The position numbers and the translations under genes are program-made. From Fibrobacter succinogenes (GTDB lineage Bacteria > Fibrobacterota > Fibrobacteria > Fibrobacterales > Fibrobacteraceae), in the NCBI GenBank assembly GCA_902756345.1, contig CACVQR010000001.1, forward strand, positions 1 through 64,000: 64,000 nt of DNA, given 5' to 3'. Numbering within the stretch: position 1 is the first letter of the stretch; every line of letters begins with the position of its first letter. Positions 27,074 through 64,000 of this stretch are shown here, in pieces. The notes under the pieces were generated by a model. That model saw only the letters and a program-made list of their open reading frames with translations, was not told the DNA's origin and searched no databases.

Positions 27074-27106
27074 ACGACAATTATCGTCGTCTACATTTTA
27101 TATATT
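27074..27106 (+). promoter_or_regulatory. Inverted-repeat operator and -10 box, WYL gene
   Basis: ACGAC-AATTATC-GTCGT (27074-27090) is followed after exactly 10 nt by TATATT (27101-27106). The same layout precedes the AAA+ ATPase and Fic genes. The repeat covers where a -35 element would be. Confidence 0.7.
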
Positions 27107-27153
27107 GAGAGATATTCCCCGACTCGCGGGGATTGCATTGTGCAGGAGGCTTT

Positions 27154-28179
27154 ATGGCAGATCAAGCTCGCGGCGAACGAATGATACGAATTTTCGTCTA
27201 TATGATGGCACACTACAACAACCGTTACAGCGTCGCCGACATCATGCGGCATTTAGACATCCGCGAAGAAGATTTGAGGAGTGTGCAACGCGACATGCAT
27301 GCACTTTCCGAAATCGAGGGCGGCTACATCAGGCGTTCTGTCGAAAGCGGCAAGACCTATTACCAGGTGGCACTCGAACGCGCAAACAAGCTCGTGTTCC
27401 CGGAATTCGGCGACACGCTTTTGCACTTCATGTTCCTGCAGCGCATCGCGAACATCTACCCGGCAACTTCGAACCTTATCGAAGACTTAACCAAGAGAAT
27501 CACGCAGGATTTGCCCGCCAAGGAACAATCGACGTTGGCATATTACGCAAAGGAACTGAATGGACGCATTCTGTTCATGGGAACGCCCCCGAGCATTGAC
27601 GAAAATGTCGGCAAAAATCTGCCAGTCATCCTTGACGCCATTCGCAAAAAACAGAAAGTACAAATCACCTACACCGACAACTGGGGAGCCATCACCAACA
27701 AGCCGCGCATTCCGCTGATGGTCGCCATCAACCACGGCGAAATCTACATCGGCTGCGTATCGCAGCACCACCCCGACAAAACATACGCCCTCAAGCTCCG
27801 CCGCATTCAATCCGTAAAGCTCTTGCGCGAACAATTCGTCGAAGATCCGAAAGTTGTCGACATTCTCCGTAAACGAATCCGCACCGGTACGCTGCTGTCC
27901 GGCGACCAGGATCAAGAAGAAGAAAAAGTCGTCATCTATTTCCCGGGATACGCCAAGAACTTTCTGCAAGAACGCCCCTACCACCCCAGCATGAAAATCA
28001 AGGAGCTGGAATGCGGCGACTTGCACGTAACCATGAAGGTCGCCGTAAACGGACTGCTTAAGCAATGGGTCATGTATTACGGTTCCATCGCTGAGGTGCT
28101 AAAGCCCGCTAAACTCCGCCAAATGGTACTCGACAGCGCAAAAGATTTAGTAAAACTGTACGAAAGAAAGTCTACTTAA
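27154..28179 (+). CDS. WYL-domain transcriptional regulator
   Basis: A 341-residue regulator with an N-terminal winged helix-turn-helix (about 5-75, YSVADIMRHLDIREEDLRSVQRDMHAL), a WYL domain in the middle (VQITYTDNWG ... RIPLMVAINHGEIYIGCVS, TYALKLRRIQSVKLL) and a C-terminal WCX-like part (DLHVTMKVAVNGLLKQWVMYYG). WYL regulators bind DNA as dimers and often control phage-defence genes. The start at 27154 follows CAGGAGG. Its own promoter holds an inverted repeat shared with two other promoters in this region, so it is the leading candidate for binding them. It overlaps the convergent PLD gene by 8 nt. Confidence 0.88.
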   Translation: MADQARGERMIRIFVYMMAHYNNRYSVADIMRHLDIREEDLRSVQRDMHALSEIEGGYIRRSVESGKTYYQVALERANKLVFPEFGDTLLHFMFLQRIANIYPATSNLIEDLTKRITQDLPAKEQSTLAYYAKELNGRILFMGTPPSIDENVGKNLPVILDAIRKKQKVQITYTDNWGAITNKPRIPLMVAINHGEIYIGCVSQHHPDKTYALKLRRIQSVKLLREQFVEDPKVVDILRKRIRTGTLLSGDQDQEEEKVVIYFPGYAKNFLQERPYHPSMKIKELECGDLHVTMKVAVNGLLKQWVMYYGSIAEVLKPAKLRQMVLDSAKDLVKLYERKST

Positions 28180-28693
28180 TCCTATCGCCGCAGAATTCCT
28201 GGCAGCCACATTTTTTGCAGTGCGAGCCCATCCATAGCGTATCGAACTGTTCTATAGCAGGTTCGACAAGCGCAGGGTCGTTCGTGAGAATTCCTGCTTC
28301 AAAATTACGGCGCAAGGAACTTTTCATACCGATTCCCGCACCCGTCAAATTCGCAGAGCCAATGTAAGCCGTCTCAAGATCAAAAATCATCATCTTGAAA
28401 TGCACCCGCGGGCACATCACGCGTTCCAAATCCGTCACCAGAATCGGAAATCGGTCAAAATCCTCACGAAAATTCGGACCAGGTTCCTTTGCGTGAATCA
28501 GACGCACGCCCACGCCGCGCTTCAAAAGTGCGGCCAACTGTCCCAGTAACGGAATTGTCTCACCATCCTGTTTCACATACACATCCTTGATATCGGCTGT
28601 ACCAATCCACAGGTTATTGCGGACCGACATGATTCGTGAAATCACTTCGGAATAGTGTTCTTCGTTTTGGATGTATTTAGTGAAAATGGACAT
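28172..28693 (-). CDS. Phospholipase D-like (HKD) protein
   Basis: A 173-residue protein with one HKD motif: VHFKMMIFDLETAYIGSANL (HxK, Asp, then GSxN), typical of PLD-superfamily nucleases and transferases. A single motif implies that it works as a dimer, as in the Nuc/BfiI type. The C-terminus has a Cys cluster (CKKCGCQEFCGD) that could bind zinc. No signal peptide is seen, so it is cytoplasmic. The start was chosen at 28693 because the upstream extension lies in a repeat from the toxin-antitoxin genes; GATATT is 7 nt before this ATG. It could be a nuclease effector of the defence-like cluster, but that is inference. Confidence 0.78.
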   Translation of the reverse strand: MSIFTKYIQNEEHYSEVISRIMSVRNNLWIGTADIKDVYVKQDGETIPLLGQLAALLKRGVGVRLIHAKEPGPNFREDFDRFPILVTDLERVMCPRVHFKMMIFDLETAYIGSANLTGAGIGMKSSLRRNFEAGILTNDPALVEPAIEQFDTLWMGSHCKKCGCQEFCGDRIK

Positions 28694-28700
28694 CGTGGTA

Positions 28701-28706
28701 AATATC
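28701..28706 (-). promoter_or_regulatory. -10-like box 7 nt before the PLD gene
   Basis: GATATT on the minus strand, no Shine-Dalgarno before the ATG; compatible with a leaderless start. Confidence 0.35.
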
Positions 28707-28721
28707 GTTTTATTGGACTTC

Positions 28722-29297
28722 CTATTTCCTCTCCGCTCTTGCAGCTTTGATTTCGGCTTCAATTTCTTCTTCACTCATGCCAGCAGAGCCGTTTTTCAAA
28801 GCATCTTCATTCAAGGCTTGTAACGCGGACATAAGAGTGGATGCGGAATAAGAAACCGAGACATCATTTACAAACATTTGCGATTGAACGGGATTTATCA
28901 AATCCAGAAAATTTCGAGCACTTATCGTAAAAGGAACGTTAGGAAAATGCTTTATATTACCCGTAACGATATAAGCATTTTTATCACGATGAGCAAAAGC
29001 TACATCATAAAAGATTCTGTCATCAACATCTGGCAAAGTAAAGTCCGTCGGCGCGACAGGCTCATTTATAGCGTATTTTAAAATTTCATCCACAAAGCGT
29101 TGACCGTATGAAGCATTCCACCTGAATTTAGAACGGCTCATCACTTCACAATATTCTTCAACAATATTTTCATCAACAATCGGCGTAAAAAGGTGTTTCG
29201 AGATACCTTGAAAAACCGCATAAGGAACTGATTGCAGACGATCTGTCGCAAGGGCGGCTGAGACCAATATATTCGTATCAACGACTGCGTAATACAC
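28722..29297 (-). CDS. PIN-domain toxin with antitoxin-like tail
   Basis: A 191-residue PIN-domain protein, likely the ribonuclease toxin of a type II toxin-antitoxin pair. Acidic motifs are AVVDTNILVSA at the start and LPDVDDRIFYDVAFA in the middle, then VTGNIKHFP. The start is the GTG at 29297 with GGAGAG upstream, giving a 20-nt overlap with the antitoxin end; the longer frame from 29339 would begin inside the antitoxin coding region. The last 41 residues (TLMSALQALNEDALKNGSAG onward) nearly duplicate the antitoxin C-terminus, which ordinary PIN toxins of this group lack. Confidence 0.85.
   Translation of the reverse strand: MYYAVVDTNILVSAALATDRLQSVPYAVFQGISKHLFTPIVDENIVEEYCEVMSRSKFRWNASYGQRFVDEILKYAINEPVAPTDFTLPDVDDRIFYDVAFAHRDKNAYIVTGNIKHFPNVPFTISARNFLDLINPVQSQMFVNDVSVSYSASTLMSALQALNEDALKNGSAGMSEEEIEAEIKAARAERK
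28731..28835. repeat. 105-bp direct repeat, copy in toxin gene
   Basis: Matches 29308-29412 with about 15 mismatches, displaced by 577 bp. It encodes the C-terminal tail of the toxin. Confidence 0.9.
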
Positions 29298-29595
29298 GTT
29301 TTTTTCTCTCCGCTCTTGCAGCTTTGATTTCCTCTTCAATTTCTGCTTCGCTCATCCCTGCAGAGCCGTTTTTCAATGCATCATCATTGAGCGCACGTAA
29401 TGCCGACATAAGTTCAGAAGATTCATTCACCGTCGGACGTTCAGACACCTTAAACGGCAACCCTCTTTCAATTACCGCTCGCTTGAAAAAAATGCGAACA
29501 GCCGTAGGAATGTCCATTCCTAGACTTTCAAACAAGTCGGAGACCTCGTCTTTCAACTTGTCATCAACGCGTATTTGTAATATTGATGTCGCCAT
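29278..29595 (-). CDS. RelB/DinJ-type antitoxin
   Basis: A 105-residue antitoxin. The N-terminal ribbon-helix-helix part (SILQIRVDDKLKDEVSDLFE, then SLGMDIPTAVRIFFKRAV) is the typical RelB/DinJ DNA-binding and dimerisation module. The C-terminal tail (GSAGMSEAEIEEEIKAARAE) is the segment that usually wraps the toxin. It is translated ahead of the PIN toxin, with overlapping reading frames. The ATG follows TGAGG, and a TATATT box lies about 35 nt upstream. The pairing of a RelB-type antitoxin with a PIN toxin is a mixed but known combination. Confidence 0.9.
   Translation of the reverse strand: MATSILQIRVDDKLKDEVSDLFESLGMDIPTAVRIFFKRAVIERGLPFKVSERPTVNESSELMSALRALNDDALKNGSAGMSEAEIEEEIKAARAERKKRVLRSR
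29308..29412. repeat. 105-bp direct repeat, copy in antitoxin gene
   Basis: Partner of 28731-28835; encodes the antitoxin tail. Recombination between the two would delete the toxin body. Confidence 0.9.
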
Positions 29596-29669
29596 ACAGA
29601 CCTCAAACGATATACAACTACTAAATATAGTATAAACACATTACAAAAGCAATATGTTTGTATATTTTT

Positions 29670-31970
29670 CTACAACCCCAGCCTACGGCCTTGATGGTCG
29701 TCTTTATTGGCGAGTTCTTCGAGCATGTTCTGCAAGATAAGTTCCTTCGTACGCAAATCGCTCGGGACATATTCTAGCTTGCGGCGCACATTCTGAAAGT
29801 CGCTAATCGCCACATTATCACAGCGAAGGATTTCCTTGGGGCAATGGCCCCCGAAAAATGCCGTCCAAGTTTTTGAAATTTGCGGCAGGTCCATATAGTT
29901 AAACGCCAGTTTCAGCTGAAAGCGTCTACGAATCGCCCAATCCAGAACATTCTCGTAGTTTGTCGCAGCAATCAACATACCGCTAAAAGAATCCATTTGG
30001 CAAATAAACTCATTCACCAAAGTCACTTCCCAATGGTTTTTCGCGTTGCCACGATTTTCAAAGAAACTGTCCGCCTCGTCGATAAACAGAATCGCATCAC
30101 TCCGTTCCGCTTCCCGGAACATCGCGCTAACGTTATGTTCACTTTCACCCACATGGCACCGCAGAATATCGCTCGCCCGTTTCACGATAATCTCGCGGCC
30201 AAGAATGTCATGCGCAATATGCTTTGCAAAAGCCGATTTTCCCGTACCGGGAGGACCATACAGGAATACATTCAAGTTCTCCCTGCAACCCGTCGCCTTC
30301 GAATCTTTCCATCGGGCATCAAAATTCTTGAGCATCGGCACGACATAATCAATATTCCGAATATCCCCGCTCGAAATGCGGACACATTCCATATTATAAT
30401 CTGGCCTCGATTCCTGCGGCAAAGTCGATATACCCAAAAGTTTAGCATGCGAAGACGCAACTTCGCGAACCACATTTAAAGGCGACATATCCTGAGACTG
30501 CATCCGTTGAGCAAGCCGAACCGCCAAAGTGGCGCTCCCTGCCATCACTGGTATTTCCTTGGCCACACATTCAATATCTTCGCCACGCATCATTGATTCC
30601 GCCTGTTGCGTTTTCAGCACCGATTGCCAAATGGCAATGCGTTCGCTCTTGTTGAACGAGAAAAATTCCAGCGAATAATCGAAACGGCGACGGGTACTAT
30701 TTTCAATCATCGCGATATTATTCGTAATCCAGATAACAGGCGTTTTCAGGCTCTCAAAAATAATATTCAGCAATCCCTTTTCTGCCTTATTCAAAACCAA
30801 GTCTGCCTCATCCATCAAGATGATGCCGCCACTCCGCTCACATTCCCAATCGGCCAAAAGCATCGAGCGCAGGCGTGTCTGCAAAAGAGATTCCTCACTC
30901 ATCGATTCTTCACCGATGCCCACCGAAAGCAATGCAACATTCAATTCTTGCGCAATCGCCTTGGCAAGTTCCGTCTTGCCCGTACCCTCGCGACCATAAA
31001 AAAGGATGTTCAGCGGGATGCCCCTTTGGTGCGATTTAAGCATCTGCAGAACAAAAGACGCCTGCGGATTCGTCTTGACTATCTGCTCATAGGGGACACA
31101 CGATTTTGCTGCCGGTCTGAAATCCATAATCTGCGACATATCTGAGAATCCGTACAGATAATTGCTCACATCATCTGCCAGGTACAATTCCTTGCGTTTG
31201 ATTCTCAAATCCGTATTGCGGAACGATTCTTCCATTTGAATTAACTGAAACTTAAGAAGCGGACTCTCCTTGGAACAAAGTTCCTGAAGCATTGCGCCAT
31301 CAAGCCCCGTCAGCAAGGCAATCCGACTAAAGGCACCACGCTCATTCGGGTCAAAAGTTTCCCCCTCTTTCACCCGAATGTTTTCTAGCCTCAAATACAG
31401 TCGCTGATGGTTCCGAAGCCACAAATAAAGCACCAGTTCCACCGCCTCATCCGATAAATGGAAAAGACGCTTTAATTCAAAAGCGCGTTGAAAAGCTTCG
31501 TCATCGTGCGAGCAACCTTTTGCCAGCTTTTCTTTCACGCAATTTTCAATCATCTGCACGATAATCGATCGCAGGCAATCATTCGCGCGCTCCAAATAAG
31601 CCATAATCTCAAAAAACTGCTGAGCAAAGCGAACATTCCTGGTTTCGTGATACGCCTCCAAAAGCTCCCGCACCCCATAATGCTTGTCATCAATCGAAGT
31701 CTTGATAGTACTCGAAAAATCAACTTGGTCGCGAATCTCGTAAACACGGTCCGCAAATTCGCCATAATAACGGACCGGCAAATAATTCTCGCAAAAACTG
31801 CGGCAGCAACCATCCGGATACGCCCGCATAAAGCGCACCCAGTATTCCATAATCTTCAAGTCGATAAAAGAAGTCCTCGACTCCGCCTTCGCCGCAGGCG
31901 ACTCCCCTTCTAACCGATCCAGAGCATTCCCGAAATAATTCTCTGCCGAATTTTGATAGTGTAATTGCAT
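29670..31970 (-). CDS. Tandem AAA+ ATPase
   Basis: A 766-residue protein with two AAA+ modules related to COG0464 (Vps4/SpoVK-like). The first, about 325-480, has Walker A YGREGTGKTELAKA and Walker B GGIILMDEADLVLN. The second, about 555-700, has Walker A YGPPGTGKSAFAKH, Walker B AILFIDEADSFFENRG and an arginine-finger region AIRRRFQL. The N-terminal 300 residues are helical and unrecognised. The start at 31970 follows an AGG-type ribosome site; 21 more in-frame codons overlap the promoter. Its promoter carries the inverted repeat shared with the WYL and Fic genes. A role as a remodelling ATPase in defence is inferred only. Confidence 0.85.
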   Translation of the reverse strand: MQLHYQNSAENYFGNALDRLEGESPAAKAESRTSFIDLKIMEYWVRFMRAYPDGCCRSFCENYLPVRYYGEFADRVYEIRDQVDFSSTIKTSIDDKHYGVRELLEAYHETRNVRFAQQFFEIMAYLERANDCLRSIIVQMIENCVKEKLAKGCSHDDEAFQRAFELKRLFHLSDEAVELVLYLWLRNHQRLYLRLENIRVKEGETFDPNERGAFSRIALLTGLDGAMLQELCSKESPLLKFQLIQMEESFRNTDLRIKRKELYLADDVSNYLYGFSDMSQIMDFRPAAKSCVPYEQIVKTNPQASFVLQMLKSHQRGIPLNILFYGREGTGKTELAKAIAQELNVALLSVGIGEESMSEESLLQTRLRSMLLADWECERSGGIILMDEADLVLNKAEKGLLNIIFESLKTPVIWITNNIAMIENSTRRRFDYSLEFFSFNKSERIAIWQSVLKTQQAESMMRGEDIECVAKEIPVMAGSATLAVRLAQRMQSQDMSPLNVVREVASSHAKLLGISTLPQESRPDYNMECVRISSGDIRNIDYVVPMLKNFDARWKDSKATGCRENLNVFLYGPPGTGKSAFAKHIAHDILGREIIVKRASDILRCHVGESEHNVSAMFREAERSDAILFIDEADSFFENRGNAKNHWEVTLVNEFICQMDSFSGMLIAATNYENVLDWAIRRRFQLKLAFNYMDLPQISKTWTAFFGGHCPKEILRCDNVAISDFQNVRRKLEYVPSDLRTKELILQNMLEELANKDDHQGRRLGL

Positions 31971-31996
31971 AGCAAAACCTCTTGATTCTACTACGC

Positions 31997-32029
31997 AATA
32001 TAAAAGAAACGCACGACAATTAGTGTCGT
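31997..32029 (-). promoter_or_regulatory. Inverted-repeat operator and -10 box, AAA+ gene
   Basis: Read on the minus strand: ACGAC-ACTAATT-GTCGT (32029-32013), exactly 10 nt, then TATATT (32002-31997). The outer bases extend the stem to GCACGAC / GTCGTGC. Confidence 0.7.
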
Positions 32030-32047
32030 GCAAGAAGATTACAAGTA

Positions 32048-33169
32048 TTATCTTTTACTTTTAACCAACTTAACAATACAATCTAATTTTTCAAAAACAT
32101 TTTGCAGTTCCTTTACAATCTGTTCATTGCTGGGATTCTTTATGTGAGATATTTTTTTCACCCATTTAAGTTTATCAGGTTGTTCATCTGGGGGACCAAA
32201 TTCAAGCAATTCACCCTTATAATTACTCAGTATTGAAGGCCGCTTAGCAGGTTGCCAAATAGTTATTTGAATATTAAAGGCATCTTGCAAATCAAATCCA
32301 GACTCTATACCAATCTCATAAGAATTATCATTCTTTTCAAAAGTGTAGCCTAAATCCAATTTTTCATACACCCACCATCCAAGCGTTTCGTTCGGATCTA
32401 ATATTTTTTTTATAATCGCGATTCGATTACTCTGTTCCATTCTTTTTTCATTAAGAAACTCTGAACGTCGAGCAATTAATTTTGAAATTTCAGAGTCATT
32501 TTCTTGAAAGAAAACTCTTTCTGCTTCCGAAAAATTTGACATAAGACCACCCTTATTTTCTAAATGTTCAAACCAATCCATCAAAACAGAAAGATACTTT
32601 CTGTTACAGTTGATTAAATACTCTCCTACACTCTCTTTTATCTTTTCAATAAATTCATGATAGTAAATAACCTTAAATTGTCCTTTTGTTCCTCCGGGAT
32701 GCTCGTCGCCACCCATTGAAAGAATTATATAAAAAGCATTTTTTCCATTCTTTATAGACTCAACATAATCAAAATAATCATCAAATGGATTATATCGTTG
32801 CGCCCAAATTTTATTTTCAACACAAATAATAAAATCATCACTAGTGATTACCAAATCAATTCGATTGTCATTGATTGTTTTCACTTCCGTTTCTGCTATT
32901 AGAGTATTCGTCTTTCCAAATACCGCATTGGAGTCAAATTTAGATCTATATATTTCAATTAAAGTGTCTATGAAAAGAGACCCAAAACCATGTGGTCCAC
33001 CCTTGTCTATAAAAAAACGAAGTAAGCGAGAACAAATCTCCTCAAAACGAGACCTTGGATAAGAACATAGTTCCAAATAAGTCGGTTCATACACCAGTTT
33101 TTTGGGAAACATCTTAAACTCATCAAGAAGTTTCTTAAATTCTGCTAGCTGATTTTCGCCATTTTCCAT
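32048..33169 (-). CDS. PD-(D/E)XK nuclease superfamily protein
   Basis: A 373-residue protein resembling the PDDEXK_20 group (PF14281). The nuclease core is visible at about residues 95-125: an acidic residue in ETEVKTINDNRIDLVI followed by ICVENKIWA (ExK). An aromatic-rich SYPRSRFEEICSRLLRFFID lies near the N-terminus. The coding DNA is clearly more A/T-rich than the genes on either side, suggesting recent acquisition. The start at 33169 follows AGAGGA. It lies 77 bp upstream of the AAA+ gene start on the same strand. It may act on foreign DNA, but no methylase or specificity partner is near. Confidence 0.75.
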   Translation of the reverse strand: MENGENQLAEFKKLLDEFKMFPKKLVYEPTYLELCSYPRSRFEEICSRLLRFFIDKGGPHGFGSLFIDTLIEIYRSKFDSNAVFGKTNTLIAETEVKTINDNRIDLVITSDDFIICVENKIWAQRYNPFDDYFDYVESIKNGKNAFYIILSMGGDEHPGGTKGQFKVIYYHEFIEKIKESVGEYLINCNRKYLSVLMDWFEHLENKGGLMSNFSEAERVFFQENDSEISKLIARRSEFLNEKRMEQSNRIAIIKKILDPNETLGWWVYEKLDLGYTFEKNDNSYEIGIESGFDLQDAFNIQITIWQPAKRPSILSNYKGELLEFGPPDEQPDKLKWVKKISHIKNPSNEQIVKELQNVFEKLDCIVKLVKSKR

Positions 33170-33252
33170 AAGCAAATCCTCTTGTCTTTAAATATACTCT
33201 ATTTAACTAACAATTCGCATTTTTTTTCAACTCGCAACATATAATTTTTTTA

Positions 33253-33315
33253 TTAGTGTCCGGTGATTTCTTCTTTCTGTTCCGCAAGAACCTGCAGTAG
33301 CTTTTTTTCGTCCAT
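33253..33315 (-). pseudogene. 20-codon ORF, likely remnant of an ATPase gene
   Basis: A short frame, MDEKKLLQVLAEQKEEITGH, has a good ribosome site (GAGG, 8 nt upstream) and two promoter-like repeats before it. The peptide resembles the first residues of DUF4143/COG1373-type ATPases, which often begin with a similar helix. It is therefore probably the stump of a deleted gene. The alternative is a genuine micro-peptide. Confidence 0.4.
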
Positions 33316-33326
33316 AAGGCACCTCT

Positions 33327-33373
33327 TAATGGACTAAAATACAGAAAATAGTTCGTCATAATGGACTAAAATA
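33327..33373 (-). repeat. Direct repeat TAATGGACTAAAATA, two copies
   Basis: Copies at 33327-33341 and 33359-33373, 32 bp apart, lie directly upstream of the 20-codon ORF. They may be a paired protein-binding site. Confidence 0.6.
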
Positions 33374-33417
33374 TAATTTATTGCCTAATTTTACCTAAAA
33401 AGTGCAATTTTATATTT

Positions 33418-34047
33418 TCAGCAATCCTTCACGCAGCGGATTGAATTCGCGCAGGAAAAATCGTTCCAAAAGCGGTCGAGAACGGCATCGTCGTAACAAT
33501 TGTCTAGGCGAACGCGGTATGCCCACTTGTTTTGCCCGACGGAACTCCAGAAACGAGTGTGTCGGCCACGCGCTCCGCAAAAGCCGAATTCTTCCATACA
33601 ACCCGCCGGATACGCCGTAAAGTTGAATGCATCAGCACTTTTGCCAACAGGGAACAGTTCGTCTTCTTCCCAATCGTCTTTGGACTTTAACGCAAGAGCC
33701 GCCCCAAGGTAAGTTTCGGCACCATGCTCGCCCATTTCACATTTAGCGCCAACTGCATTAAACAAGTCTCGCCAATCGTCATTGTTCGGCAAGCGCCAAC
33801 CTTTGGGGACCGCGGCTTCTGCAAATTTCCAGTAGTAGCACAAGCCATATTTCTTCACATCTGGGTCGCAGTTCCAATCGTAAGGCGGCGTTTCGCCATT
33901 CAAGCACAAGTACCCCATGCCGCCGGCATACGCCTGCGCACCTTCGCATTTATGCCGCAAGTTTTCGGCGAACCAAATCCGATTGCCGATTTTCACGGTG
34001 CGGTAGGTTTCACCGTCTCGCGGATCCGTAAAGTATGAGTCTTTCAT
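33418..34047 (-). CDS. Stand-alone FISUMP-domain protein without signal peptide
   Basis: A 209-residue protein that is almost entirely one FISUMP domain: DPRDGETYRTVKIGNRIWFA, ENLRHKCE, PKGWRLPNNDDWRDLF, RHTRFWSSV and the closing SIRCVKDC. Unlike the other three FISUMP proteins in this window it has no signal peptide or lipobox, so it should stay in the cytoplasm. It follows the Fic gene by 9 nt with AGGAGG setting its ATG, so the two form an operon. Eight or more cysteines are present. Function unknown; a role as partner of Fic is a hypothesis. Confidence 0.88.
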   Translation of the reverse strand: MKDSYFTDPRDGETYRTVKIGNRIWFAENLRHKCEGAQAYAGGMGYLCLNGETPPYDWNCDPDVKKYGLCYYWKFAEAAVPKGWRLPNNDDWRDLFNAVGAKCEMGEHGAETYLGAALALKSKDDWEEDELFPVGKSADAFNFTAYPAGCMEEFGFCGARGRHTRFWSSVGQNKWAYRVRLDNCYDDAVLDRFWNDFSCANSIRCVKDC

Positions 34048-34056
34048 AAAAGCCTC

Positions 34057-34590
34057 CTACATAATCAAGTTCACTATGAGTTTGGTCATGGTTTCACATT
34101 CTTCGGGTTTGCTTTCAGCAATGAGCAGCGTGAGTGCGACTAGGGCACCATCGCTTACGATTTTGGAGCCATCCACTCGATAAAGGATATCGTTGCGCGA
34201 CATATACCACAAGAAAATGAACGCAGCAATGCGCTTATTGCCGTCAACAAAAGAATGGTTCTTGACAAGCAGATACAGGAGTGTTGCCGCCTTCATCTGC
34301 ACGGTCGGATAAAGTTCCTTGCCGTCGAAGGTCTGGTAAATTTGTCCGAGTGAACTCTTGAAAGAAGCATCCTTTTCGACACCGAATATTCCACTGTCGC
34401 GGAATTTTTCCTTGAGCACAGCAATCGCTTCCATCGCCAACTCATAGGTGATGGGGCCGTTCGTTTCGCTGTAGTCTACGCCGGTCTTTGGGAATTCCAG
34501 TTGCTGATGGTCGTAGCGGTCCAAAGTTTCAAGGGCCGCGCGAAAATCATTGATGACATTTGATATTTCTAGTTTCTCCAATCTGTTCAT
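34057..34590 (-). CDS. Fic/DOC family protein
   Basis: A 177-residue Fic-fold protein. The active-site motif HSFVDGNKRIAAFIF (His112, Asp116, Asn118, Lys119, Arg120) fits HxFx(D/E)GNKR. Fic proteins usually transfer AMP, and DOC uses phosphate, onto target proteins. No clear inhibitory (S/T)xxxE(G/N) helix was seen in the protein, though one may be hidden in the N-terminal 60 residues. The next gene encodes a FISUMP protein rather than a known antitoxin. The promoter carries a variant of the inverted repeat found before the WYL and AAA+ genes. Confidence 0.87.
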   Translation of the reverse strand: MNRLEKLEISNVINDFRAALETLDRYDHQQLEFPKTGVDYSETNGPITYELAMEAIAVLKEKFRDSGIFGVEKDASFKSSLGQIYQTFDGKELYPTVQMKAATLLYLLVKNHSFVDGNKRIAAFIFLWYMSRNDILYRVDGSKIVSDGALVALTLLIAESKPEECETMTKLIVNLIM

Positions 34591-34618
34591 GACGCACTCC
34601 TTTTAGGGGAACATCACG

Positions 34619-34651
34619 AATATAGATTGAGCACGCGACAATTAGCTTCGT
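34619..34651 (-). promoter_or_regulatory. Inverted-repeat operator variant and -10 box, Fic gene
   Basis: Read on the minus strand: ACGAA-GCTAATT-GTCGC (34651-34635), exactly 10 nt, then TATATT (34624-34619). It shares CTAATTGTCG with the AAA+ promoter. Confidence 0.6.
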
Positions 34652-34795: not shown

Positions 34796-35608
34796 ATGAA
34801 TATCAAGTCTTTTGATGACCTTGACATCACCGACCCGATTATGTTCGGGCTCGTTTTCAGCAACAAGCACATCGCGCAACCATTCATCGAGCATTTGTTG
34901 GACATAAAAATCGACCATTTGGAAACTCCTATTCCGGAAGCGGTTTTGAGCTACGATGCAGAGCACAAGGGCGTCCGCTACGATGTATTTGCGCGTGAAA
35001 CCAATGAAAATGGCGAAACAATCCGTTCCTTTGATTTAGAGATGCAGATGGTTGATACCAAGGAACTCCCGCAGCGGGCTAGGTATTACCAGAGCGTGGG
35101 CGACGGCGTCGCTCTTTCAAAGGGAGGCCATTACACCGGCCTTAAGGAACAATACATCATCTTCCTTTGTCCTATGGATATCTTTGGGCGGGGCTTTCCT
35201 GCGTATCATTTCGAAAACAGGGCGTTCGAAGATTTCAACATCACATTGAACGACCTCACTTACAAGAATTATTATATATTTACAAGGTACAAGGATTTTA
35301 CGGACCCGGTCGTTAAAGCTTACATGAAGTACTTTGCGACTAGGAATGTGGACTCCCGTGAAACCGAAAACATCAACAACCAGGTGTCTTATTACAAGGC
35401 CGACACTCTCATAAGGAACAAGTATATGACTTTCGAATATGACCTTCATGAAAGTAAGGAAGAGGGCCGAGCAGAAGGCCGTGTCGAAGAACGTCGCGAA
35501 ATAGCTGCGGCCATGCTCGCGGACGGCGATTCTGTCGAGAAGGTCGTGCGGATTTCCAAGTTGACCGAGGCCGAGGTTTTGGCAATCAAAGCCAACCTTG
35601 CGAATTAA
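34796..35608 (+). CDS. Rpn / TIGR01784 PD-(D/E)XK nuclease-like protein
   Basis: A 270-residue member of the Rpn / TIGR01784 family, often labelled putative transposase. These are PD-(D/E)XK nucleases linked to RecA-independent recombination. The catalytic pattern is GVRYDVFARE (Asp) and FDLEMQM (ExQ). The opening FDDLDITDPIMFGLVF and ARYYQSVGD are typical. The C-terminus is helical and charged (EEGRAEGRVEERREIAAAML). AAAGGA gives the start. No inverted repeats of an insertion sequence are visible around it. A strong terminator follows at 35633-35660. Confidence 0.87.
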   Translation: MNIKSFDDLDITDPIMFGLVFSNKHIAQPFIEHLLDIKIDHLETPIPEAVLSYDAEHKGVRYDVFARETNENGETIRSFDLEMQMVDTKELPQRARYYQSVGDGVALSKGGHYTGLKEQYIIFLCPMDIFGRGFPAYHFENRAFEDFNITLNDLTYKNYYIFTRYKDFTDPVVKAYMKYFATRNVDSRETENINNQVSYYKADTLIRNKYMTFEYDLHESKEEGRAEGRVEERREIAAAMLADGDSVEKVVRISKLTEAEVLAIKANLAN

Positions 35609-62515: not shown

Positions 62516-64000
62516 TAAGAAAGATTCCTTGTAAAGGTACACTTTTGGTATTCGCGTCTATAATTACTACAGCCGATAAACATTCCATACGGACCTTTTT
62601 TCTTTTCTAAATGACCGCCGCACTTGGGGCAAATCCAGCCTTCGGCCTTAATATCATTTTCGTAACGACTTGAAATTTCTTCATAGAAGCAAGATTCTTC
62701 CGCAGAGTTTGAGGGAGGAACGAAAATCACTTTTTTCTTCGCCCGCGTCATTGCCACATAAAAGAGGCGTCGTTCTTCGGCATAAGGGAATTCTTCTGGA
62801 TTTTCGGAAAAGAGTTTCATCACGGGAGCATCCTCAATTTTACTTGGGAAGCCTTTCCGGCCGTTTTTATTGTTCAAAATAAAAACATAATCCGCTTGCA
62901 AACCTTTTGACGCATGAACTGTCATAAAGTTGATAAACAAATCCTCACGACCGGCATATTTGTATTCGCCATTTTTTCCTATCGGAACCAAATTTTTCAA
63001 ATAATTTTTCATCATCTTTTCATCATCTTTGTAACGACCAAGGAAAAGCACCTTGCTGTTTCGCGGCAATTCATTCAATCTCCACTCCCATAAACCTTTA
63101 CCTAAAACAAAGTCATTATCCTTTGATGGTGTTTTCAGTTGTTTCTTAATCTGAGACGGATTTTCCATGACAAAACTACCACTCGCCTCAATAAGTCGTT
63201 TCGGGAATCGATAGGTTGTTTCAATTTTTCCAATTTCCGTAGGCCCCCAATATTTTTCAAAATTGAGGATATAACTCACATCGCTCCCAGCAAATCGGTA
63301 AATACTTTGCCAATCATCACCAACACAGAACAACTTGTAATCCGATGAATCACGCAAAGCCTTTAGCAAGTTAAATCGAGGCTTCGATATATCCTGATAT
63401 TCATCAACTATCACAACCTTATATGGATTGGTATATTTGCCCTCACGAGCATATTGAGCAGCGTTATTAATCATATCGCTAAAATCGATATAGTTCTTTT
63501 CAGAAAGCATTTTCAAATATGCGGTATATATCGGTTCAAATAAACGCAGAATATCATCATTCTCTCGTCGTTCCAGAATACTAGCAGTTGAATAATTAAT
63601 TCGTTTTAAATCTTCAACAGAATAGACATTCGCTTTGGCTTGGGTAAGCATAGCCCCCAAAAGAGACGCGATTCTTTGAAAAACGAAATTTTTGTCATAA
63701 TCATTCTGCATACTCGCCCACATATCTTCTGCAGAACGAGGCTTGAGAATCACACCTTGATTAACAAGTCTTTTGGACAGTTCATCTAAAAGAGTATCTT
63801 CAAATTTTTCATAGGCAAAGCATTCGACAAGTTTGGTATTATGCTCTTTGTGGATTCTTCGCTTCCACCTCATTCCTTCCGAATAAAGCTGACTTGCCGT
63901 TTTTCCATTCTTACCTAAAAACGCATCAGAAACTCTACCTTGCCTATTGATTCCAAAGTATTCTATATATACGTCGTATTCAGGCAAATAAAAATCGGGC
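62515..64000 (-). CDS. UvrD/HelIV-type DNA helicase (5' end beyond window)
   Basis: Over 490 residues of a superfamily 1 helicase; the Walker A part lies outside the window. The visible frame begins PDFYLPEYDVYIEYFGINRQ, then the Walker B VVIVDEYQDISKPRFN, CVGDDWQSIYRFAGSD, TVHASKGLQADYVFILN and RRLFYVAMTRAKKKVI. The C-terminus is a topoisomerase-type zinc finger (CPKCGGHLEKKKGPYGMFIG, then CSNYRREYQKCTF). It likely unwinds DNA in repair or defence. The stop overlaps the ATG of the RAMA gene remnant. Codons are A/T-rich compared with the core genes. Confidence 0.9.
   Translation of the reverse strand, partial: PDFYLPEYDVYIEYFGINRQGRVSDAFLGKNGKTASQLYSEGMRWKRRIHKEHNTKLVECFAYEKFEDTLLDELSKRLVNQGVILKPRSAEDMWASMQNDYDKNFVFQRIASLLGAMLTQAKANVYSVEDLKRINYSTASILERRENDDILRLFEPIYTAYLKMLSEKNYIDFSDMINNAAQYAREGKYTNPYKVVIVDEYQDISKPRFNLLKALRDSSDYKLFCVGDDWQSIYRFAGSDVSYILNFEKYWGPTEIGKIETTYRFPKRLIEASGSFVMENPSQIKKQLKTPSKDNDFVLGKGLWEWRLNELPRNSKVLFLGRYKDDEKMMKNYLKNLVPIGKNGEYKYAGREDLFINFMTVHASKGLQADYVFILNNKNGRKGFPSKIEDAPVMKLFSENPEEFPYAEERRLFYVAMTRAKKKVIFVPPSNSAEESCFYEEISSRYENDIKAEGWICPKCGGHLEKKKGPYGMFIGCSNYRREYQKCTFTRNLS

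Follow-up and report, generated by a model that had tools for sequence, protein, structure and literature searches.

In a stretch of 64,000 nucleotides (nt) from Fibrobacter succinogenes (contig CACVQR010000001.1 of assembly GCA_902756345.1, positions 1 to 64,000; hereafter the window), an island of defence-like genes includes a regulator with WYL and WCX domains, and the gene for this regulator, a tandem AAA+ ATPase gene and an operon of a Fic and a FISUMP gene are each preceded by the same inverted repeat. In all three cases, the repeat ends exactly 10 nt before a presumed –10 box, TATATT. The layout recurs across the genus and corresponds to that described for DriD, an activator of Caulobacter crescentus, and we consider it probable that the WYL protein is a DriD-like activator that would turn on its own gene by positive autoregulation together with a defence-like cargo island.

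The operators, presumed –10 boxes and genes are the following (window positions, strand, description and basis):

27074–27090, +, operator of the WYL gene, ACGAC-AATTATC-GTCGT; pattern match, kept in WYL orthologues
27101–27106, +, presumed –10 box TATATT of the WYL gene, 10 nt past the operator; pattern match
27154–28179, +, WYL-WCX regulator of 341 amino acids, predicted order winged helix-turn-helix, three helices, WYL, WCX; Pfam and predicted fold
32013–32029, –, operator of the tandem AAA+ gene, ACGAC-ACTAATT-GTCGT; pattern match, kept in homologues
31997–32002, –, presumed –10 box TATATT of the tandem AAA+ gene; pattern match
29670–31970, –, tandem AAA+ ATPase of 766 amino acids, IetA-like by PADLOC; Pfam AAA 1.1e-41, PADLOC IetA 8e-42
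34635–34651, –, operator of the Fic-FISUMP operon, ACGAA-GCTAATT-GTCGC, with one arm mismatch; pattern match, arms intact in Fic orthologues
34619–34624, –, presumed –10 box TATATT of the Fic operon; pattern match
34057–34590, –, Fic-domain protein of 177 amino acids, PDC-S23-like by PADLOC; Pfam Fic 2.1e-11, PADLOC PDC-S23 6.3e-65
33418–34047, –, FISUMP-domain protein, whose gene is presumed to come second in the Fic operon, starting 10 bases past the Fic stop; Pfam Fib_succ_major 1.5e-20
32048–33175, –, PD-(D/E)XK protein, PDC-S26-like, inside the island and without a convincing operator here; Pfam and PADLOC

One operator layout in the window and across the genus

The first-pass annotation of the window had proposed that three promoters share one inverted repeat exactly 10 nt before TATATT, and this description holds: RCGAM-N7-KTCGY-N10-TATATT has three matches without mismatch (27074–27106 +, 31997–32029 – and 34619–34651 –), and a scan of the window allowing up to two mismatches yielded no site beyond these. 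With up to two mismatches allowed, dinucleotide shuffles of the window averaged 0.39 matches, and three were reached in only 1 of 100 shuffles. The weak match (AATTGT) that had also been noted before the PD-(D/E)XK gene did not stand up as evidence for a further target, in that the slot AAAATGCGAATTGTTAG fits 4 of 10 arm positions by hand count, which is the chance level. A relative of this protein with 43% identity (L105:5205–6368) does have an operator 46 nt upstream, its arms perfect and followed after 10 nt by TACATT.

To follow the layout through the genus, we counted strict sites, defined as RCGAC-N7-GTCGY-N10-TATWTT, in 80 genomes and found 157, as against a single site for the reversed-pattern control. 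These sites are almost confined to genomes that encode the regulator: 155 occur in the 50 WYL-positive genomes and 2 in the 30 WYL-negative ones (Fisher test, 7.6e-13; four weak WYL matches are left out of this split). Moreover, 126 of the 150 listed strict sites share a contig with a WYL gene, and 122 of the 126 are no more than 15 kb from it. If the repeat were a generic promoter motif, it would turn up at many unrelated promoters; its near absence from WYL-negative genomes led us to reject this reading.

Upstream regions of the WYL genes themselves tell the same story. A score of at least 14 of 16 was reached by 59 of 71 regions, compared with a rate of 0.00028 in single-base shuffles, and the layout is found before 11/11 genes whose products are at least 90% identical to the window protein, 11/12 at 70–90%, 5/5 at 50–70%, 31/39 at 40–50% and 1/4 below 40%. 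These figures bear on the possibility that the sites have no function and reflect chance, or the duplication and common descent of a promoter segment. Close relatives do share their flanks, and many AAA+ promoters have nearly the same 10-nt spacer, as such descent would predict; but the layout holds before most WYL genes of 40–50% identity, far exceeds the shuffled rate and stands before unrelated cargo families with different spacers, so that we find this explanation scarcely credible.

Beyond the genus, we inspected 20 regions around distant WYL homologues. Three of these (L284, L286 and L292, the last from another family of the phylum) have 9–10 of 10 arm positions, the 10-nt distance and a near –10 box, and two (L285 and L291) have 8 of 10 arm positions. 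The remaining 15 regions show no clear site at the WYL promoter, L288 having perfect arms but no –10 box at 10 nt. No earlier description of this Fibrobacter regulon was among the matches listed by our literature searches.

Rigid geometry and the missing –35 element

The distances were counted in 71 WYL neighbourhoods fetched regardless of motif, with all distances from 0 to 30 and all arm gaps from 0 to 15 tried. The distance between operator and TATWTT is 10 nt at 95 distinct sites and the next most frequent value, 8 nt, occurs at 4; an arm gap of 7 occurs at 95 sites and any other gap at 2 at most. Adding two loci that had been chosen by motif raises the number of sites with gap 7 and distance 10 to 96. 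A relaxed scan (score of at least 14 of 16) is less sharp, with 59 sites at 10 next to 51 at 8 and 43 at 12, and we put the two side peaks down to TATATATT runs that score at several offsets; the spacing was therefore taken from the strict count.

With TATATT taken as the –10 box, the 17-bp operator covers about –39 to –23 and thus overlaps the position of a –35 element. There is little sign of such an element beneath it. TTG occurs at –35 in 22% of 130 operator-free TATATT upstream regions (6.6% when shuffled) versus 0 of 61 operator promoters, a comparison that is weakened in that these TATATT sets are not mapped promoters. Likewise, the best match to TTGACA averages 1.66 of 6 positions in 110 distinct operator sites, compared with 2.51 at random. 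The promoter-proximal TTGTC of the Fibrobacter sites lies 12 nt before the –10 box, and the RecA-NDp motif of the mycobacterial WYL regulator PafBC has the same 12-nt spacing.

Correspondence to DriD

DriD is a WYL activator of an SOS-independent DNA damage response, which anchors the polymerase after single-stranded DNA (ssDNA) binds its WYL domain (PMC12340889). Its consensus, ATACGAC(X)7GTCGTAT, contains the core ACGAC-N7-GTCGT of the Fibrobacter operators, and its sites, like those described here, lie at one distance from the –10 box over a poor or missing –35 element (PMC12340889). As we read the printed didA and CCNA_03891 promoters, each consists of the core, 10 nt and a hexamer. When bapE is aligned by eye to didA, the guanine at the ninth base is the only one common to all three promoters in the 16 bases past the core; if this is G-14, then –12 falls on the eleventh base, with ten bases between it and the core, which is the Fibrobacter geometry. 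This placement of the Caulobacter –10 box is itself a reading of printed oligonucleotides combined with the conserved G-14 given in the text, which lessens its weight.

The proteins are also alike in overall plan, with a predicted winged helix-turn-helix, three helices, WYL and WCX, a single gene and a palindromic site. In Pfam, the window protein matches WCX at 7.7e-10 and WYL at 2.2e-4 (21.6 bits, just under the cut-off of 21.8). Its structure was predicted with a mean local confidence (pLDDT) of 77.8 and a predicted template modelling score (pTM) of 0.55, and the three helices (residues 85–99, 103–118 and 122–135) fall in the least confident stretch, with block means of 51–67. Searched with Foldseek, this model has DriD as its best match (8tp8, 5.1e-14), followed by PafBC (3.6e-11), CapW (1.4e-6) and BrxR (1.2e-5), and the VIA Z scores are 15.7 for the DriD core, 14.4 for DriD, 12.1 for PafBC, 11.6 for BrxR and 11.4 for CapW, so that the predicted fold is nearest to that of DriD. 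A WYL profile search finds PafC and DriD weakly, and a phmmer search of the WYL protein against the PDB returned no match.

There are differences as well. DriD does not control its own gene (PMC12340889) and its targets are didA, bapE, recJ and dnaG, whereas the Fibrobacter WYL gene has a site at its own promoter and the other targets form a clustered, variable and defence-like island. The two proteins are about 15% identical and come from different phyla, and activation by ssDNA in Fibrobacter would be an extension by analogy.

Covariation of the recognition helix with the operator

Four residues, R42, R46, K214 and R217, are invariant in 39 of 39 WYL proteins. The first two sit in the recognition helix, where they recall the pair R44/R48 of PafB (PMC6789036). 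In DriD-type activators, arginines of this helix contact guanines, but R42 and R46 could be aligned with no residues of the DriD helix-turn-helix. The other two align with R201/R204 of PafC, although this segment scores only 4.4 bits and the first arginine is a lysine here; the PafC pair belongs, together with R211/R214 of PafB, to a set of arginines that, when changed jointly, no longer allowed ssDNA binding, and of which the PafB pair was decisive (PMC11804915).

The recognition helix occurs mainly as L-R-S/N or as R-R-N/S, and among 59 WYL promoters (two of them unclassified) base 10 of the operator is A at 22 of 27 with the former as opposed to 1 of 30 with the latter (Fisher test, 8e-10), counts in which related sequences are not independent. 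The same bias extends to sites at genes other than the WYL gene, with A at base 10 in 48 of 52 near L-R-S/N genes and 11 of 43 near R-R-N/S genes. Because base 10 mostly follows the helix type at unrelated genes too, the local WYL protein is tied to their operators, subject to the caution on relatedness given below.

This association also bears on whether the layout is a promoter class of fixed form that an alternative sigma factor, or some other regulator, recognizes, the WYL gene being just one of its targets. The rigid spacing from the –10 box and the lack of a –35 element would fit a sigma-factor promoter equally well, and 24 of the 150 listed sites are on contigs without a listed WYL gene, the assemblies being fragmented. 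Such a factor would not, however, lead us to expect sites that are concentrated within 15 kb of a WYL gene and nearly absent without one, that follow the helix type of the WYL protein, and that form a symmetric palindrome equal to the DriD core. We therefore regard this explanation as improbable.

Targets and cargo genes

In 30 AAA+ loci and 30 Fic loci fetched for comparison, the operators are retained by close orthologues of the window genes. Among homologues of the tandem AAA+ protein of at least 45% identity, 21 of 22 keep the operator, the exception being a copy whose match starts at residue 59; at 33–38% identity, 0 of 8 have it. An operator is nevertheless present at further distant AAA+ genes located near second-type WYL genes, as at G063:C7:63105, 84 nt before an AAA+ match at 63221. 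For Fic, all 15 orthologues of at least 83% identity have the site, with all ten arm bases intact in the 14 besides the window copy, whose left arm is ACGAA; below 83% identity, the site is present in 4 of 15. The first-pass annotation suggested that the AAA+ gene and the Fic operon are linked in one autoregulated WYL regulon, and the comparative data support this. To this we add that the layout appears to be that of the activator DriD rather than that of the defence repressors BrxR or CapW.

The set of genes behind the operators varies. Not every WYL gene is paired with a tandem AAA+ gene, as only 42 of 71 have such a neighbour within 15 kb. PLD-like proteins stand behind operators in ten loci, some of which share one palindrome with a divergent WYL gene, with 10 nt to a –10 box on both sides; the PLD-like gene of the window (28172–28774, –), to which these are related (one relative being 93% identical), is in tail-to-tail orientation to the WYL gene and lacks the operator. 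Operators are also followed by many small proteins to which Pfam assigns no family. Of 20 cargo representatives, 16 had no Pfam match at E 0.01, and PADLOC gave no match at 0.01 for nine of ten further cargo proteins, the sole match being a LeoC-like protein (L103:14576–15073, –; 8.2e-40) situated 145 nt after its operator and –10 box. Other cargo includes a short GyrA/ParC-like protein in two genomes (L049:9573–10583, –, and L052; Pfam DNA_topoisoIV 1.5e-52 for the L049 copy) and an SprT-like protein (L063:6973–7350, –; Pfam 2.3e-5, just under the cut-off).

In the window island, the matches to defence models found by PADLOC are the IetA-like AAA+ protein, the PDC-S23 Fic protein and the PDC-S26 PD-(D/E)XK protein. 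For island and cargo genes alike, the defence label denotes similarity only: the tandem AAA+ protein, for example, reaches 133.8 bits, far below the NCBIfam IteA cut-off of 510, and is similar to IetA without more being implied. Between the WYL and AAA+ genes, RelB-like (29278–29595) and PIN (28722–29339) open reading frames (ORFs; both –) have nearly identical C-terminal tails of about 40 residues, nine overlapping 18-mers being repeated 577 bases apart, and a PDDEXK_2 gene (PD-(D/E)XK family transposase type; 34796–35608, +) is divergent to the Fic promoter.

In the whole host genome (3.36 Mb in 27 contigs), at up to one mismatch there are seven pattern matches, four of them exact, and one for the reversed control. 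The fourth exact site, C5:71215–71247, lies directly before a paralogue of the regulator, WYL-2 (C5:70222–71199, 46% identity), and a site at C5:59530 with TATTTT as its –10 box precedes a cargo gene of the same second island (ORF at L111:2608). Together with the three window sites, these account for five of the seven, distributed over two islands. A palindrome at G000:C5:36919 was rejected, as it is inside a coding region and has no –10 box at 10 nt. Because WYL-2 and a cargo gene in the second island also carry sites, the genome appears to have two WYL/operator circuits. Two homologues of the WYL protein also occur in the cultured strain F. intestinalis ATCC 43854. Downstream of its operator, the second island (L111:2608–9689, +) has two ORFs with HNH motifs, read by eye, and several unknown genes.

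Activation or repression

Other WYL regulators offer several precedents. PafBC, a heterodimer, recognizes a motif that is not palindromic (PMC6789036) and binds only together with RNA polymerase (PMC12340889); the Fibrobacter protein is similar in its WYL-WCX activator fold and in the low-scoring alignment of K214/R217, but each island has one WYL gene and a palindromic operator. SiwR of Mycobacterium smegmatis is similar in being a homodimeric activator of adjacent genes that uses a 19-bp imperfect palindrome upstream of a –10 motif; it differs in that its target is a dinB-like operon and its palindrome reaches from the –10 as far as the –35 region, and no multi-promoter island is described for it in the available part of PMC10693628.

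A rival reading comes from the two WYL regulators of defence loci considered here. BrxR of BREX islands is a repressor (PMC9122601), as is the homodimeric CapW of CBASS (PMC9122588), and the present system resembles the first in having an inverted repeat before the regulator's own gene and the second in having a palindrome in the promoter of defence-type genes. A repressor of this type could cover –35 at its own promoter and at those of the island, to be released when ssDNA or another ligand of phage infection enters the WYL domain. A site over –35 would block sigma, and several island and cargo proteins match defence models. But the palindrome of CapW overlaps the –10 box (PMC9122588), and BrxR has its box downstream from the predicted –10, with arms of 11 bp around a spacer of 5 bp (PMC9122601), neither at a fixed upstream distance, whereas the Fibrobacter operator ends 10 nt upstream. 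Moreover, repression requires a promoter that works alone, yet the TTG at –35 is absent; blocking has no need of a rigid 10-nt distance; and the predicted fold is nearer to DriD. We hold such a repressor to be rather unlikely. Because the geometry and fold resemble those of DriD, the –35 TTG is missing, and the sites of CapW and BrxR are at or downstream of –10, an activator seems more likely than a repressor.

Several observations weigh against a DriD-like activator, beginning with the overlap with –35, which fits a repressor too. Strict sites are lacking in 7 of the 50 WYL-positive genomes and present in 2 of the 30 WYL-negative ones, and the full layout is absent upstream of 12 of 71 WYL genes. 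Structurally, the resemblance to DriD involves about 15% identity, a TM-score of 0.42 over the full length and a root-mean-square deviation of 18.5, and a profile search with the helix-turn-helix alone does not find DriD and gives no residue alignment to its helix-turn-helix. The two helix forms are two groups of relatives, so the covariation may rest on few events, and the other base is found at 11 of 43 sites in the vicinity of R-type genes.

The DriD-like activator that we nonetheless favour would act as follows. A dimer of the WYL protein would bind the 17-bp palindrome RCGAC-N7-GTCGY, which takes the place of a –35 box, the –10 box starting exactly 10 nt on. Once bound, it would recruit RNA polymerase to promoters with a good –10 and no –35, as DriD does in Caulobacter, and would thereby activate its own gene, in a positive feedback, as well as variable nearby genes and small operons, which in the window are the tandem AAA+ gene and the Fic-FISUMP operon. 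Judging by the analogy to DriD and PafBC, the protein is probably triggered by ssDNA, arising from DNA damage or phage infection and bound by the WYL domain. We infer binding by this particular protein, activation in preference to repression, the ssDNA ligand and a role in defence.

It is quite possible, if short of probable, that a self-amplifying, ssDNA-triggered activator turns on the whole cargo set simultaneously, giving defence by activation and not by the derepression seen with BrxR and CapW, that new cargo joins by acquiring a portable 33-bp cassette of operator and –10 box, and that this genome houses two such circuits, each with its own operator flavour. The findings place the DriD operator, and its distance from the –10 box, in another phylum, with more than 150 naturally varied sites that constitute a large data set on how homodimeric WYL activators may read promoters. 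They further predict that defence-like islands are in some cases controlled by WYL regulators that activate and feed back positively on themselves, and they supply a sequence test (arms, a gap of 7 and a distance of 10) by which the members of such islands can be found, including cargo without any known domain.

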